This document shows, piece after piece, positions 4,001 through 15,827 of a stretch of DNA of 64,000 nucleotides. Source of the DNA: Luteibacter sp. UNCMF331Sha3.1 (GTDB taxonomy: Bacteria; Pseudomonadota; Gammaproteobacteria; Xanthomonadales; Rhodanobacteraceae); NCBI RefSeq assembly GCF_900109915.1, contig NZ_FOBU01000001.1, positions 688,764-752,763 of the forward strand. Direction: 5' to 3'. The position numbers were made by a program, and so were the translations under genes. The notes under the pieces are model-generated. The model was not told where the DNA came from. It ran no database searches and saw nothing but the letters and a program-made list of their open reading frames with translations. Every line of letters begins with the position of its first letter. Position 1 is the stretch's first letter.

Positions 4001-5675
<1,675 letters not shown>

Positions 5676-5683
5676 TCGTGCCC

Positions 5684-5714
5684 GTCACCGCGGTCAGGGA
5701 CGTACCGCGGTGAC
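5684..5714. terminator. Bidirectional hairpin between amtB and the RidA gene
   Basis: GTCACCGCGGT at 5684-5694 and ACCGCGGTGAC at 5704-5714 form a perfect 11-bp stem with a 9-base loop. The right arm lies inside the 3' end of the RidA gene (stop at 5694-5696), so one hairpin serves both converging operons. There is no clear U-tract, so a transcript-end role is inference. Confidence 0.5.
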
Positions 5715-6185
5715 CTCGATCTCCACGAGGAAATTCGGGCTGACGAGGCCGGCGACCTGCATCGTCGAACGCGCTGGCAGGTTGGGCTGGGCCGCGGTAC
5801 CGAAGAACTGCTTGTAAGCCTCGGTGAAGCCGGCGAAGTCCATCTTGCCACCCTTGGCCGGGTCGCCGACGAGGAAGACCTGCATCTTCACCACGTCGCC
5901 CATCGTCAGACCCATTTCCTTGAGCTGCGCCTCGATCGAGCGCAACGCACCGGTCGCCTGCGTTTTCGTGTCACCGTAGGCCTGCACACTGTCTTTGGGC
6001 GCGCTCGTATCGGACACCGGCGGAACGGCGCCACTGACGAACACGAGCGTCTTGCCGGCAGGTACTTCCACCGCGCCCGCGATCGGAAGCATCGGGTTCG
6101 CCAGCTTGTGCCGAACGACGTCGGAAGCGAGAGCCGGCGCGGAGACGGCGAGCAGCGTCGCGGCAAGTAGAAGGGATCGGGTCAT
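5694..6185 (-). CDS. Secreted RidA-family (Rid/YjgF) imine deaminase-like protein
   Basis: This 163-residue protein begins with a clear signal peptide (MTRSLLLAATLLAVSAPALA), followed by a complete RidA domain. The C-terminal LPARSTMQVAGL...LVEIEVTA contains the arginine that binds the carboxylate of imine substrates in active RidA proteins. RidA enzymes hydrolyse reactive enamine/imine products of amino-acid or amine oxidation to ketones and ammonia. Most are cytosolic, so export is notable. The ATG overlaps the stop of the cytochrome gene by 4 bp. It is the last gene of the oxidoreductase-cytochrome-RidA operon, which suggests it clears imines made by the first enzyme in the periplasm. That pairing is inference. 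Confidence 0.88.
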   Translation of the reverse strand: MTRSLLLAATLLAVSAPALASDVVRHKLANPMLPIAGAVEVPAGKTLVFVSGAVPPVSDTSAPKDSVQAYGDTKTQATGALRSIEAQLKEMGLTMGDVVKMQVFLVGDPAKGGKMDFAGFTEAYKQFFGTAAQPNLPARSTMQVAGLVSPNFLVEIEVTAVRP

Positions 6186-6601
6186 GGTCGATGGCCTCGG
6201 GGTCGGTTGGGGGTGGTAGAACGGAAGGGTTCGACGTCGGCAGCGGTCACGGTGTCGGCGTAGTGATTGCCGAAATGCGTGCGGATGTAATTCACCACGT
6301 CGGCGACCTGTGCATCGGTCAGCAACATCGAGAACGGCGGCATGCCGCCCCGTCCGTTCATGACCATCACGACAGGATAGGCTTTCGCTGCCAGCTTCGG
6401 ATTGGACGCAAGTGCCGGATAGTGCCCCGCGCCGACGGCCCCCTTCGCGTCCGCCATGTGGCACCCCTGGCACACGTGCGTGAACGTCTGCTCGCCCGTG
6501 ATCTCGGCGGCGTGTTTCTGATCGATGAAACGCGGATCCATCGACTGCGCGTGGACAGCGGTGGCGATGCCCATCGAAAGAGCGACGATGACGGTCTTCA
6601 T
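6182..6601 (-). CDS. Secreted mono-haem c-type cytochrome
   Basis: This 139-residue protein has a signal peptide (MKTVIVALSMGIATAVHAQ) and one haem-attachment motif CQGCH at residues 44-48. A later methionine-containing segment (GRGGMPPFSMLLTDAQVADVVNYIR) is typical of class I cytochrome c domains, which use Met as the second axial ligand. It lies between the FAD amine oxidoreductase and the RidA gene, with 4-bp overlaps on both sides. The arrangement suggests it takes electrons from the flavoenzyme in the periplasm and passes them to the respiratory chain, making the enzyme a dehydrogenase rather than an H2O2-forming oxidase. That role is inference. Confidence 0.92.
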   Translation of the reverse strand: MKTVIVALSMGIATAVHAQSMDPRFIDQKHAAEITGEQTFTHVCQGCHMADAKGAVGAGHYPALASNPKLAAKAYPVVMVMNGRGGMPPFSMLLTDAQVADVVNYIRTHFGNHYADTVTAADVEPFRSTTPNRPRGHRP

Positions 6602-8202
6602 GAGCGGGCTCCTTCGATGGCGCGCCGGTGCACCATGTCGATCGCCGCGAGCGACGAGAGAACGGCGCCCTCCTGCCACGCGGGAAGATACGAAGCATGT
6701 TCGCCGGCCAGCACGATCCGTCCGTCCATCGAGCAAAGGTCCGCGTAGTGCTTCTCGCGCGCGGCGTCGGTCCACCAGCCGAAGCAACCCATGGCGAAAG
6801 GCACGCGATGCCATGCGATCGCCATGCCGCTCTCGAACGCGTCCGGAAACTGCGGGTGCACCTTCGCGCCGTACTCGATCGTCTTGCGGATGCGTTCGTC
6901 CGGATTCATCGCGGTGAACTCGTAGGCCTCGAGAAAGAACGCGTACGAAGCGAGCATCACGCCCTTCTTCGTGCCGATGCCGTGGCTCGGATACGCCATC
7001 ATGCCGATGGGCAGGTCCGTCATCGTCACACCGCCGTAGATCGCGTCGTCTTCTTCCCAGAACCGGCGCTTGAACTGGATGCCGACTTTCGACGACGACA
7101 TGTATGGCACCGCGGCGATCGCAGCCTGTTTCGCCGCCGAGACCTGGATCGGAATCTGGCTCAGCACGGACAGCGGAATCGTGCAGACGCACCAGTCGGC
7201 TTTCTCCCGACGTACGGCACCGGGCGACGCGGTGTCCTCGTAGCTGACGGTCACGCCGCGATCGTCCTGCGCGATCGCGGTGACCTTCGCGCCGTAGTGG
7301 ATCACACCCTCGCCGATCTCGCGCGCGAACGCTTTCGCGATCGCGTCCATGCCGCCCACCGGTTGCAGCATCGCGGGCTGGTAATCGTAGAACTCGGCCA
7401 TGCCGAGGCCCGTCCAGAGGCGCGCGTTCAGCACGTCCGATAGCCCCACGGGCTGAGAGAAGGCCGGCGCGGCGTCGGGGCCGCCGCCGGGGTCCTTCGC
7501 GTAGCCACGGTGGCCGCTGCTGTCCGGCCCTTTGACGTAGCGATACTGTGCATCGAGGCCGCCGAACTGCCGCAACGACTCGAGCAGGATTTCGCGGTCC
7601 TCTCGGCTGACCAGCTGGTCGAGACCGCCCTGGCCCGCCACCTTGGCGAGCAGGTCCGCGATTCCGCCGTGGAAATCGGCCTGCACTTCGCGCATGCGCT
7701 GAGGCTTGCCGCCGAAGGCGTCCTTCCCGTAGATGTAGGCGTTCTGATTGACCTGGATGAACGGCTCGAGCGCCACGCCGAACCGACGGCAGTAATCGAG
7801 CACACCGTGATGATGGTACGGAATGCGCCAGGGCCCCGGGTTGAAGTACATGCCCGGATCGAAGCGGCAGACCTGTCGCTGACCGCCCAGCTCGGTGAAC
7901 GCGTCGCCCGGACGAAGCGTCCAGGTCCGTCCGCCGGGGCGGTCGTTGTACTCCAACACGCGCACCTTGTAGCCGGCCTTGCCGAGCTCGTAGGCCGCCG
8001 TCATGCCCGCGAGGCCGGCGCCGAGCACCAACACGGTGCCGTGCCCCGTGCCCTGGAGCGACGTCGGCGGTCGATAGGGCGATGCGGCCGCGATGCCCAG
8101 GCTGGTCATCGCCTGGTACATCATCGCCCCTCCGCCGGCGAGGCCGATCATGCGGAGGAGGTCACGGCGCGTGATGGAAGCGGTGCCCGTATCGTTCGCC
8201 AT
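6598..8202 (-). CDS. Tat-exported FAD-dependent amine oxidoreductase
   Basis: This 534-residue flavoprotein belongs to the flavin amine oxidase family. The N-terminus carries a twin-arginine signal (TRRDLLRMIGLAGGGAMMYQ, residues 11-30). The FAD-binding segment VLVLGAGLAGMTAAYEL follows, with the acidic end of the second strand in VRVLEYNDRPGGRTWT. The C-terminal flavin motif is AGEHASYLPAWQEGAVLSS. Substrates are probably amines or L-amino acids; the sequence does not tell which. It heads an operon with a secreted cytochrome c and a secreted RidA, all overlapping by 4 bp. Tat export fits folding with FAD in the cytosol. The 150 bp to the divergent amgK gene must hold both promoters. Confidence 0.9.
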   Translation of the reverse strand: MANDTGTASITRRDLLRMIGLAGGGAMMYQAMTSLGIAAASPYRPPTSLQGTGHGTVLVLGAGLAGMTAAYELGKAGYKVRVLEYNDRPGGRTWTLRPGDAFTELGGQRQVCRFDPGMYFNPGPWRIPYHHHGVLDYCRRFGVALEPFIQVNQNAYIYGKDAFGGKPQRMREVQADFHGGIADLLAKVAGQGGLDQLVSREDREILLESLRQFGGLDAQYRYVKGPDSSGHRGYAKDPGGGPDAAPAFSQPVGLSDVLNARLWTGLGMAEFYDYQPAMLQPVGGMDAIAKAFAREIGEGVIHYGAKVTAIAQDDRGVTVSYEDTASPGAVRREKADWCVCTIPLSVLSQIPIQVSAAKQAAIAAVPYMSSSKVGIQFKRRFWEEDDAIYGGVTMTDLPIGMMAYPSHGIGTKKGVMLASYAFFLEAYEFTAMNPDERIRKTIEYGAKVHPQFPDAFESGMAIAWHRVPFAMGCFGWWTDAAREKHYADLCSMDGRIVLAGEHASYLPAWQEGAVLSSLAAIDMVHRRAIEGARS

Positions 8203-8352
8203 TGCAGTACCCCGGAAGGAACCCCTTGGGGCAGCATCCCAGATGGCGTCATGCGGGACAACTGGCCCGACGGTATAGCGTCGCGTCGACGCTGTGACAC
8301 GTCGCCACAAAGGCTCTAAGCTCATCGTTCGTATCGCATTCGCAGACGCCGC

Positions 8353-9363
8353 ATGACCGCCACGGAACGTTCCGCCGCACGCCTCGCCTGGGCCCGTCAG
8401 GTCACGGGCGACGCCACCCTGGACCTCGAACCCGCCTCCGCCGACGCCAGCTTCCGGAGCTACTGGCGCGGTTACGTCGACGGCCAGCCGGTCATCGTCA
8501 TGGATTCGCCGCCCGACCGCGAAGACCCGGCACCCTGGATCGCGATCGGCCGGCGCCTTGCCGAGGCCGGCGTGCACGTACCGAAGGTCATGGTGGCGGA
8601 CGAGGCGCAGGGCTTCCTGCTGATCGAAGACCTCGGCACGCGCACGTACCTGCCCGAGCTCGACGACGCCACCGTCGATGCGCTCTACGGCGACGCGCTC
8701 GACGCGCTGCTGCGCATGCAGATGCACGTGGATACCAACGGGCTGCCCTCGTTCAACCACGAGTGGCAGACGATGGAGCTCGAGATCATGCCGACGTGGC
8801 TTCTGCAGAAGCATCTCGGCGTGGACGTGGCATGCGAGGAATGGGACATCATCGAAGGCGCGTTCACCGCCATCATGCATGCCATCGACGAGCAACCGCG
8901 CGCGTTCATGCACCGCGACTACCACAGCCGCAACCTGCTGGTGACCACGGAACGTTCGCCCGGCGTCATCGACTTCCAGGGCGCGATGTCCGGCCCCATC
9001 ACCTACGATCTGGCTTCGCTATTGCGCGATGCCTACATCGTCTGGGACAACGAGCGCGTCGAAGGCTGGGTCGAGGCCTATCGCCTACGCCTGCTCGACG
9101 CGCGCCTGCTCGACGAAACGATCGATACCGACCGTTTCCGCCGCTGGTTCGACCTCACGGGCCTGCAGCGACACATCAAGATCCTCGGCCTGTTCTGTCG
9201 CCTGCATTACCGCGACGGCAAGACGGGCTACCTCGCCGACCTGCCGCGCGTGCTCCGCTACGTGGTCGACACCGCGCGCCGTCACGCCGACGTCGCACCG
9301 CTGGCCGACTACCTCGAAGCGAAGATCGGCGACGGCGACATCCGCGTGGCGCGCGACGCATGA
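8353..9363 (+). CDS. amgK: AmgK, anomeric MurNAc/GlcNAc kinase
   Basis: This 336-residue phosphotransferase has the aminoglycoside-phosphotransferase fold. The catalytic loop is FMHRDYHSRNLL and the metal site is GVIDFQGAMSGP. AmgK phosphorylates the anomeric hydroxyl of MurNAc released from recycled peptidoglycan, and MurU then makes UDP-MurNAc, bypassing de novo synthesis and the fosfomycin target MurA. The identification is strong because murU follows directly, overlapping at ATGA. This amgK-murU pair is the recycling route of many gammaproteobacteria that lack the E. coli MurQ pathway. Confidence 0.93.
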   Translation: MTATERSAARLAWARQVTGDATLDLEPASADASFRSYWRGYVDGQPVIVMDSPPDREDPAPWIAIGRRLAEAGVHVPKVMVADEAQGFLLIEDLGTRTYLPELDDATVDALYGDALDALLRMQMHVDTNGLPSFNHEWQTMELEIMPTWLLQKHLGVDVACEEWDIIEGAFTAIMHAIDEQPRAFMHRDYHSRNLLVTTERSPGVIDFQGAMSGPITYDLASLLRDAYIVWDNERVEGWVEAYRLRLLDARLLDETIDTDRFRRWFDLTGLQRHIKILGLFCRLHYRDGKTGYLADLPRVLRYVVDTARRHADVAPLADYLEAKIGDGDIRVARDA

Positions 9364-14500: not shown

Positions 14501-14511
14501 GTGCTGGGTGC

Positions 14512-14795
14512 GGCTCGGCTTCGCCATCGCGTTGGGTTTCGCGTGGCCGCGAAGAGCCGTCGGCCCTCACCCTCGGCGCTCCGAGCTCCGGCGTCGCTTG
14601 GGTAAGGAGGCCGCTGCGCGGCCATGTCTGATGGCTTACGCCCCGGCGCGCACGGGCTTCGCGCGGGGGGTTTCGATTCGGCCTCCGTGCCTCAACGAAA
14701 ACGGCCGGCCATCCGGGCCGGCCCCCTTCGGGCCTTTTCCGCGCGAATCCCTCACCTCCACAAGTCGCGCCGAGGGTGAGGGCCGACGGCTCTGC
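14512..14795 (+). repeat. Left arm of the composite inverted repeat
   Basis: It runs from GGCTCGGCTTCGCC to CCGACGGCTCTGCC. Its own ends are complementary (GAGCCGTCGGCCCTCACCCT near 14554 against AGGGTGAGGGCCGACGGCTC near 14793), so the arm alone can fold into a long hairpin. It includes a second palindromic core CGGCCGGCC...GGGCCGGCC near 14702. Confidence 0.8.
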
Positions 14796-14913
14796 CGGCT
14801 GTTGAGGCGCCGGGCGGGGGATGCAGCCGCGCGGGAAGCCTGCCAGCGACGAGGTGCGAGCAAGCCTGCTGGCGATGGGTGCTCGCCACGAGCGATGCCT
14901 TTGCCCGGTGCTC

Positions 14914-14981
14914 TGTGGGAGCGGCCTTGGCCGCGATGGGGCTCGCGGCAAGCACCCATCGCGGCCGAGGCCGCTCCCACA
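14914..14981. repeat. REP-like palindrome, class II copy 1
   Basis: The arms TGTGGGAGCGGCCTTGGCCG and its near-perfect complement flank a central GATGGG...CCCATC. It belongs to the GTGGGAGC family found elsewhere in the window. Confidence 0.85.
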
Positions 14982-15140
14982 GACAGCCAAAAGCTTGCCG
15001 CTGTAGCAGCTCCTACCAACAGCTGGCCTCGCCGAGGCGCCAGGTGGCGAAGCAGCCGCCAGGAAATCCCGCTGGCGATAACACGGCTACCGCCGGGTGG
15101 GAGCCAGCCTGCTGGCGATGGGTACTCGCCGCCGCAATTC

Positions 15141-15209
15141 TGTGGGAGCGGCCTTGGCCGCGATGGGTGCTCGCGGCAAGCTCCCATCGCGGCCAAGGCC
15201 GCTCCCACA
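15141..15209. repeat. REP-like palindrome, class II copy 2
   Basis: It is almost identical to the copy at 14914 and ends in GGCCGCTCCCACA. Predicted stem arms exceed 25 bp. Confidence 0.85.
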
Positions 15210-15378
15210 GACAGCCAAAAGCTTGCCGCTGTAGCGGCTCCTACCAACAGCTGGCCTCGCCAACCGCCGAGGCGCCGGGTGGCGAAGCAGCCGTCAGGAA
15301 ATCCCGCTGGCGATAACACGGCTACCGCCGGGTGGGAGCCAGCCTGCTGGCGATGGGTACTCGCCGCCGAAGCAGTTC

Positions 15379-15406
15379 TGTGGGAGCGGCCTTGGCCGCT
15401 CCCACA
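15379..15406. repeat. REP-like palindrome, class II copy 3 (short)
   Basis: TGTGGGAGCGGCC followed by its complement forms a compact perfect hairpin. The central part seen in copies 1 and 2 is deleted. Confidence 0.8.
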
Positions 15407-15464
15407 AAAAGCCAAGAGCTCGCCGCTATAGCGGCTCCTACACAGGCAGTTTGCCTCGCGGATT

Positions 15465-15746
15465 GGCAGAGCCGTCGGCCGCCGCCCTCGGCGCGACTTG
15501 CGGAACCGAGCGCGGCGAGCGGATCAGGCCCGCAGGGGGCCGGCCCGGACGGCCGGCCGTTTTCGTCGAGGCAGGAGCCGAGTCGAAAACCCCCGCTCGC
15601 CGCGCGGGCGCGCAGGGGCGTCAGCCATAGGACACGGCCGCGCAGCGGCATCCTTTCCCAAGCGACGGTGAAGCCCGGAGCGCCGAGGGCGGTGGCCGAC
15701 GGCTCTTCGCGGCCACGCGAAACCCAACGCGATGGCGCAGCCGAGC
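15465..15746 (-). repeat. Right arm of the composite inverted repeat
   Basis: Read on the minus strand it follows the left arm from GGCTCGGCTGCGCCATCGCG to GCCGACGGCTCTGCC, with scattered substitutions and short indels. The same element is therefore present twice in opposite orientation around the tandem core. Confidence 0.8.
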
Positions 15747-15827
15747 CGGAGCAACGAGGGCGCCGGCCGACGGCTCTTCGCGCTAACGCGAGGCAAAGCG
15801 CGACAGCGCAAGCCGAGCCGTCACAAA

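Follow-up and report, generated by a model that had tools for sequence, protein, structure and literature searches.

A conserved three-gene operon of Luteibacter that probably encodes a periplasmic L-amino acid:cytochrome c oxidoreductase with a Rid3-type partner

What reaction would require a flavoenzyme, a cytochrome c, and a RidA-family protein, all apparently exported and encoded as one unit, in Luteibacter sp. UNCMF331Sha3.1? The window analyzed here comprises 64,000 nucleotides of that genome (contig NZ_FOBU01000001.1, positions 688,764 to 752,763; positions below are those of the window). Its minus strand encodes, in order, an FAD (flavin adenine dinucleotide) enzyme of 534 residues (6598-8202), a one-haem cytochrome c of 139 residues (6182-6601) with the haem-binding motif CQGCH (6458-6472), and a RidA-family protein of 163 residues (5694-6185). 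Translation bore out the original prediction of three genes overlapping by 4 bp each (6598-6601 and 6182-6185) and carrying Tat, Sec, and Sec signals, although the signals were scored by eye and by simple rules of our own rather than by a dedicated predictor. The N-terminus of the flavoenzyme, ITRRDLLRMIGLAGGGAMMYQ, is Tat-like (twin-arginine translocation; signal region 8080-8202, with the twin Arg at residues 12-13), and the N-termini of the cytochrome, MKTVIVALSMGIATAVHAQ, and of the Rid protein, MTRSLLLAATLLAVSAPALAS, are Sec-like (general secretion). Pfam assigned the three proteins to Amino_oxidase (PF01593, E = 2.7e-51), Cytochrome_CBB3 (PF13442, E = 1.7e-12), and Ribonuc_L-PSP (PF01042, E = 4.8e-19), and the host genome encodes TatC and the cytochrome c assembly genes. 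Gene order, linkage, signals as judged from sequence, family, and active-site residues are direct observations. They lead us to propose that the trio is probably a periplasmic L-amino acid:cytochrome c oxidoreductase with a Rid3 imine hydrolase.

The flavoenzyme is closest to the L-amino acid oxidases, which head its PDB matches (best 60 of 102). The top match was roLAAO of Rhodococcus opacus (2jae; 290 bits, E = 2.4e-85, against 150 bits for the next), with 36.0% identity (169/469). An AlphaFold model (pLDDT 79.8, pTM 0.82; low confidence at residues 1-41, the Tat signal region, and at 188-194 and 267-274) aligned with roLAAO over 409 residues in VIA-align (Z 51.3, root-mean-square deviation (rmsd) 3.8; next different protein, Z 37.4). 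Foldseek also returned roLAAO as the best match (E = 1.3e-44), but with an rmsd of 12.8 over 486 columns. Arg126 (codon 7825-7827), Tyr420, and Trp509 map onto roLAAO residues that we take to bind the amino acid, Arg84 and Tyr371 presumably holding its carboxylate. Arg126, the equivalent of the carboxylate-binding Arg, was invariant in 36/36 and 21/21 aligned relatives and Tyr420 was present in at least 90% of rows; the twin Arg was likewise invariant (10/10 and 36/36). These features argue for a roLAAO-type enzyme acting on L-amino acids rather than amines, with the side chain left open. The original prediction of an "amine or amino-acid" enzyme thus keeps its second half and loses its first. 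A generic amine oxidase was rejected on sequence, fold, and active-site residues. NicA2 was found neither among the best 60 of the 102 PDB matches nor among the fold matches listed, which is not evidence against kinship. y4wF of rhizobia was considered as a further relative but not established as one.

Linkage of the genes in relatives, on which the original prediction turned, held across the order. We sampled 151 genomes of the order (with 1.5 kb flanks), 398 of the phylum, 23 of the host genus, and 199 of the genus taken as Pseudomonas. Flavoenzyme matches occurred in 18 of the 151 order genomes at 21 places, 17 of them with at least 57% identity; at these 17 the cytochrome c gene was adjacent in all, RidA in 14, and the twin Arg was present in all. 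The other four matches (27-36% identity) had neither cytochrome c nor RidA within the flanks. In the host genus the flavoenzyme was found in 19/23 genomes, each of the 19 with the complete trio; the closest named relative is Luteibacter sp. UNC138MFCol5.1 (88%). Two Luteibacter genomes with the full trio hold a second copy consisting of flavoenzyme and cytochrome and no RidA (L020, L021), and a TonB receptor lies upstream of the second copy in L. rhizovicinus (L041). The 4-bp overlaps are not kept in relatives, where intergenic gaps range from -4 to +60 bp with start codons of our choosing. Searching 5500-8500 returned no sigma-70-like promoter or terminator-like site; shuffled sequences yield 0.6 and 1.6, so this result is uninformative.

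Named genomes gave the same picture. This set comprised the best 80 of at least 575 relative-encoding stretches (from at least 595 candidates), all at 56% identity or higher, and adjacency was testable (at least 1.1 kb of downstream DNA) at 77 of them, L066, L071, and L092 being left out. Cytochrome c lay downstream in 76/77, and RidA also in 49/77; the sole testable locus without the cytochrome, L095, lacks RidA as well. All four Xanthomonas loci among the 80 (L070, L076, L079, L107) carry the trio. In the phylum sample the flavoenzyme occurred in 27/398 genomes at 31 places. Thirty of these loci were fetched, and hidden Markov models (HMMs) found cytochrome c in 19, RidA in 21, and both in 13; in three further loci (L128, L129, L133) the gene between the flavoenzyme, here a distant one, and RidA encodes a two-haem cytochrome of ∼200 residues, as checked by Pfam for two of them. 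Plasmid records matching the flavoenzyme numbered 37, of which five plasmids were read: the full trio is annotated in Comamonas and Ketogulonicigenium, flavoenzyme and cytochrome c are annotated in Rhizobium tropici and Mesorhizobium, and the Deinococcus plasmid has cytochrome c upstream of the flavoenzyme and no RidA annotated within 4 kb.

The closest solved relatives of the Rid protein are PFL_1385 (9bkc, E = 2.1e-37) and PSPTO_3006 (9bka, E = 2e-31), followed by TdcF (E = 4.6e-10). The first two are listed as Rid3 proteins and, as purified proteins in vitro, reduced the trapped imine formed from Leu, Gln, Phe, Met, and His by venom L-amino acid oxidase (PMC5619798, Table 3 for the subfamily), a paper whose main text contains neither "signal" nor "periplasm". 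Arg139 (codon 5769-5771), which from its PARS/PSRS context is taken to be the catalytic Arg of RidA, and Glu157 were invariant in 13/13 linked proteins. Ile35 was also invariant (13/13) and may correspond to the RidA Tyr that Ile replaces in Rid3 (PMC4433059). The host genome holds four RidA-family genes; that of the trio alone begins with a signal-like N-terminus and alone matches the Rid HMM, the other three having plain cytosolic N-termini.

A profile of the 13 linked Rid proteins, which biases the search toward linked matches, found 26 places in 25/398 phylum genomes (E = 1e-15 or better). A flavoenzyme gene lay on the same strand no more than 1.5 kb away at 22 of them and no more than 5 kb away at 24. 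One of the two remaining places is in a genome that also has linked copies, and the other, where the match is only partial, is in a genome that lacks the flavoenzyme. Conversely, 24 of the 31 flavoenzyme places had Rid within 5 kb. In the order sample 14/16 Rid places lay within 1.5 kb of the flavoenzyme, and the other two were in genomes with no flavoenzyme match. With all but two of the 26 genes of this type no more than 5 kb from the flavoenzyme in the 398 genomes, Rid3 looks like a dedicated helper of this enzyme. The clustering of RidA, and sometimes Rid3, genes with FAD amine oxidases has been described, the in vivo substrates of Rid1-3 being given as unknown as of 2015 (PMC4433059). Exported RidA proteins, considered unusual in the original prediction, are not rare in this setting: by our rule, 109/134 linked Rid proteins carry a Sec-like signal.

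How might the three proteins act together? The flavoenzyme would fold with its FAD in the cytoplasm, be exported by Tat, and oxidize an L-amino acid to the 2-imino acid in the periplasm. Reduced FAD would then pass single electrons, in turn, to the operon's cytochrome c and on to the respiratory chain, while the exported Rid3 protein would accelerate hydrolysis of the 2-imino acid to the 2-oxo acid and ammonia. We infer the substrate, the cytochrome as acceptor, and periplasmic imine hydrolysis. By comparison, the predicted division of labor (FAD dehydrogenase, cytochrome c acceptor, RidA imine hydrolase) remains the best-supported reading, with its substrates revised to L-amino acids. A Tat signal and an adjacent cytochrome c are reported to be good predictors of dehydrogenases that use cytochrome c (PMC12224317).

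This composition already has a name, contrary to the original prediction. The lao-cccA-ridA cluster of Gluconacetobacter diazotrophicus PAL5 (GDI2456-GDI2454) was described in 2016 with mutant phenotypes, and its authors report the same cluster from Caulobacter and Xanthomonas (PMC5053998). It has the same three kinds of gene in one operon and in the same order, with a Tat signal on a 533-residue enzyme that is 34% identical to roLAAO. Two lao Tn5 mutants were reported to form no detectable indole-3-acetic acid (IAA) and to leave most tryptophan unused, cytochrome c maturation mutants were reported at 5% of wild-type IAA, and cytochrome c and RidA are proposed there to act in support of the oxidase (PMC5053998). 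Mutants thus tie that cluster to tryptophan use and IAA, whereas the Luteibacter trio is known from its genes alone; only the analogy with G. diazotrophicus makes tryptophan, which would yield indole-3-pyruvate, a likely substrate here. Of 43 L-amino acids tried with roLAAO, the same paper states, 39 were oxidized, among them tryptophan; in the sections used here it does not take up the Rid subfamily. NicA2 and Pnao, members of the same superfamily, share with the trio a Tat flavoenzyme and an adjacent Sec cytochrome c; many such flavoproteins are reported to be dehydrogenases, and for NicA2 and Pnao cytochrome c use was demonstrated biochemically, but that survey began from NicA2 BLAST hits and its main text contains neither "RidA" nor "L-amino acid" (PMC12224317). 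LAO1 and the RidA-like LAO2 of Chlamydomonas also combine an L-amino acid oxidase outside the cytoplasm with a protein of the RidA family and are tied to IAA formation from tryptophan; in contrast, the algal system makes H2O2, and no cytochrome c is named for it in the sections used (PMC10805672). The Luteibacter trio is therefore a real and well conserved further example of a known cluster make-up, not a new system. New here are the partner's assignment, by sequence, to the Rid3 type and its 24/26 linkage in the sample; within the open-licence literature we found no report in which the operon's partner is identified as Rid3 or reduction of the cytochrome is measured for this clade.

A FastTree phylogeny was built from 101 flavoenzymes, rows of at least 85% identity being merged, out of 179 loci that remained after dropping repeat fetches and four loci with a flavoenzyme HMM score below 300 (L018, L019, L022, L230). 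The genus taken as Pseudomonas contained relatives in 50/199 genomes at 52 places, one of which was not fetched. On this tree RidA adjacency changes 23 times and cytochrome adjacency at least 3 times, the latter figure being soft because L095 was merged away and L066, with only 298 bp downstream, was scored as lacking the cytochrome. The signal state of Rid changes twice: in one lineage and, less surely, in L015, which our rule scored as signal-less though its upstream frame is hydrophobic. The lineage comprises 24 loci, two of them from the phylum sample, with no cytochrome found alongside, charged residues breaking the Tat region, and Rid without a signal; it is nested in 25 loci that are likewise without the cytochrome yet retain the Tat signal and a Sec-signal Rid. 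One locus of the genus taken as Pseudomonas (L229) has the full trio. Export of Rid thus seems to have been lost together with export of the enzyme, which, as a single event, is not a statistic. Sign tests of coupled change were uninformative (at most 3 independent pairs for cytochrome and Rid, 1 for Tat and Rid signal). The Tat rule used in that test (at least three charges) marked 14 of the 24 loci, and a rule of fewer than 15 uncharged residues after the twin Arg marks 22 of them plus seven others (four with signal-bearing Rid, three with no Rid). "Weakened Tat signal" is therefore our interpretation of the residues and not a program prediction. In genome G654 a cytochrome-less flavoenzyme is split over two frames (L230).

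Several observations weigh against the proposed scheme. At 29 loci of the wider family no cytochrome was found alongside, although the Tat-like signal and Rid are both there. Two roLAAO pocket residues, Gln228 and Trp426, are replaced by Tyr274 and Phe474 (a mapping that lies partly in a low-confidence stretch of the model), so substrate specificity may differ. Lys372, the lysine linked to the reaction with O2, is kept. The lability of RidA adjacency on the tree and the absence of RidA from 1.5 kb downstream in 28/77 named loci make RidA helpful at most: the imine-hydrolase role originally given to it stands within the best-supported reading, but as a less essential part. The probable likeness to GDI2456-2454 is drawn from the published description, from its statement on Xanthomonas, and from loci L070, L076, L079, and L107. 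Finally, sequence alone is reported to separate oxidases unreliably from dehydrogenases (PMC12224317), and the G. diazotrophicus insertions lowered the transcripts of all three genes (PMC5053998), so they cannot separate the roles of the genes.

The alternative that survives best is compatible with this scheme: the operon may serve mainly nitrogen scavenging, with periplasmic ammonia taken up by AmtB and oxo acids or IAA as by-products, which we consider possible, if the less probable emphasis. Chlamydomonas LAO1, with LAO2, is reported to free ammonium from external amino acids (PMC10805672). In the window, glnK (4034-4372, PF00543, an ammonium-uptake regulator) and amtB (4362-5675, PF00909, ammonium uptake), assigned by Pfam and synteny and given as context only, lie on the plus strand, end to end with the trio and 18 bp from its end, and amtB also adjoins the trio in four Luteibacter loci (L003, L004, L030, L031) and one of Pinirhizobacter (L038). 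Against this, amtB is convergent and outside the operon, and with 1.5 to 4 kb flanks no locus beyond those had it next to the trio, so a shared ancestral neighborhood explains the arrangement. glnK is near the trio in three Rhodanobacter-type loci (L011, L074, L104).

We judge it unlikely that the enzyme is instead a periplasmic L-amino acid oxidase that produces H2O2 from O2, its cytochrome c scavenging peroxide or serving elsewhere. roLAAO and the snake L-amino acid oxidases are O2-using oxidases, a difference from the proposed enzyme that counts for this view, as do the conserved flavin lysine (Lys372) and the existence of cytochrome-less relatives with a Tat signal. The near-perfect cytochrome linkage in named genomes speaks against it, as does the different, two-haem cytochrome that occupies the same slot in three distant relatives. 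From published work, amine oxidases with a Tat signal only are reported to react fast with O2 (PMC12224317), whereas the IAA loss in the G. diazotrophicus cytochrome c maturation mutants points the other way (PMC5053998). The trio's Tat signal and neighboring Sec cytochrome c would equally suit a NicA2/Pnao-like periplasmic dehydrogenase whose substrate is an amine other than an amino acid, but this reading is very improbable, since sequence and fold group with L-amino acid oxidases and Arg126 (36/36) and Tyr420 are conserved.

Genes near the trio elsewhere hint at extracytoplasmic work on amino acids or peptides. Neighbor groups were formed by BLAST at the 80 named loci, with Pfam run on one member per group. 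A TonB-dependent receptor gene lies directly upstream on the same strand at nine loci (L036, L037, L040, L041, L048, L049, L058, L085, L106), a hint of uptake across the outer membrane. At 12 loci of Bradyrhizobium and Tardiphaga (L055, L057, L062, L063, L067, L072, L075, L083, L084, L089, L091, L094) the pair or trio is followed by an M20 peptidase whose N-terminus is Sec-like. In five loci, four of Xanthomonas (L070, L076, L079, L107) and one of Pseudoxanthomonas (L058), a class I/II aminotransferase with a Tat signal comes after RidA, ∼1 kb past the flavoenzyme, and is a candidate extracytoplasmic pyridoxal phosphate enzyme. None of the three (TonB receptor, M20 peptidase, Tat aminotransferase) occurs in the window's own operon. 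Divergent from the trio is a phosphotransferase-family gene (8353-9363, plus strand; PF01636 and synteny), which we take to be amgK-like and give as context only. Elsewhere in the window, 14511-15810 is built of repeats, with inverted arms of 172 nt (87%) and 109 nt (84%) around direct repeats of 96-105 nt at ∼230 bp spacing.

An endohyphal Luteibacter is reported to make no IAA in pure culture, yet to raise the IAA of its fungal host when given tryptophan (PMC3782478), and release of indole-3-pyruvate by the bacterium would fit as the source of this boost. No match to indole-pyruvate decarboxylase exceeded the family cut-off in the genome, nor did any control genome pass it. We advance only speculatively, as a rather doubtful whole, the wider proposal that a branch annotated as L-amino acid oxidases consists of respiratory periplasmic L-amino acid:cytochrome c dehydrogenases, that Rid3 is their dedicated and usually exported imine hydrolase, and that Luteibacter makes indole-3-pyruvate outside the cytoplasm and so raises fungal IAA. 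The trio would give the Rid3 subfamily a concrete partner and compartment and would extend the idea of cytochrome c-using dehydrogenases from amines to L-amino acids. The results also suggest that the annotation flavin monoamine oxidase may be wrong for many genes, and a single knock-out could probe the way in which Luteibacter raises auxin in the fungus that houses it.

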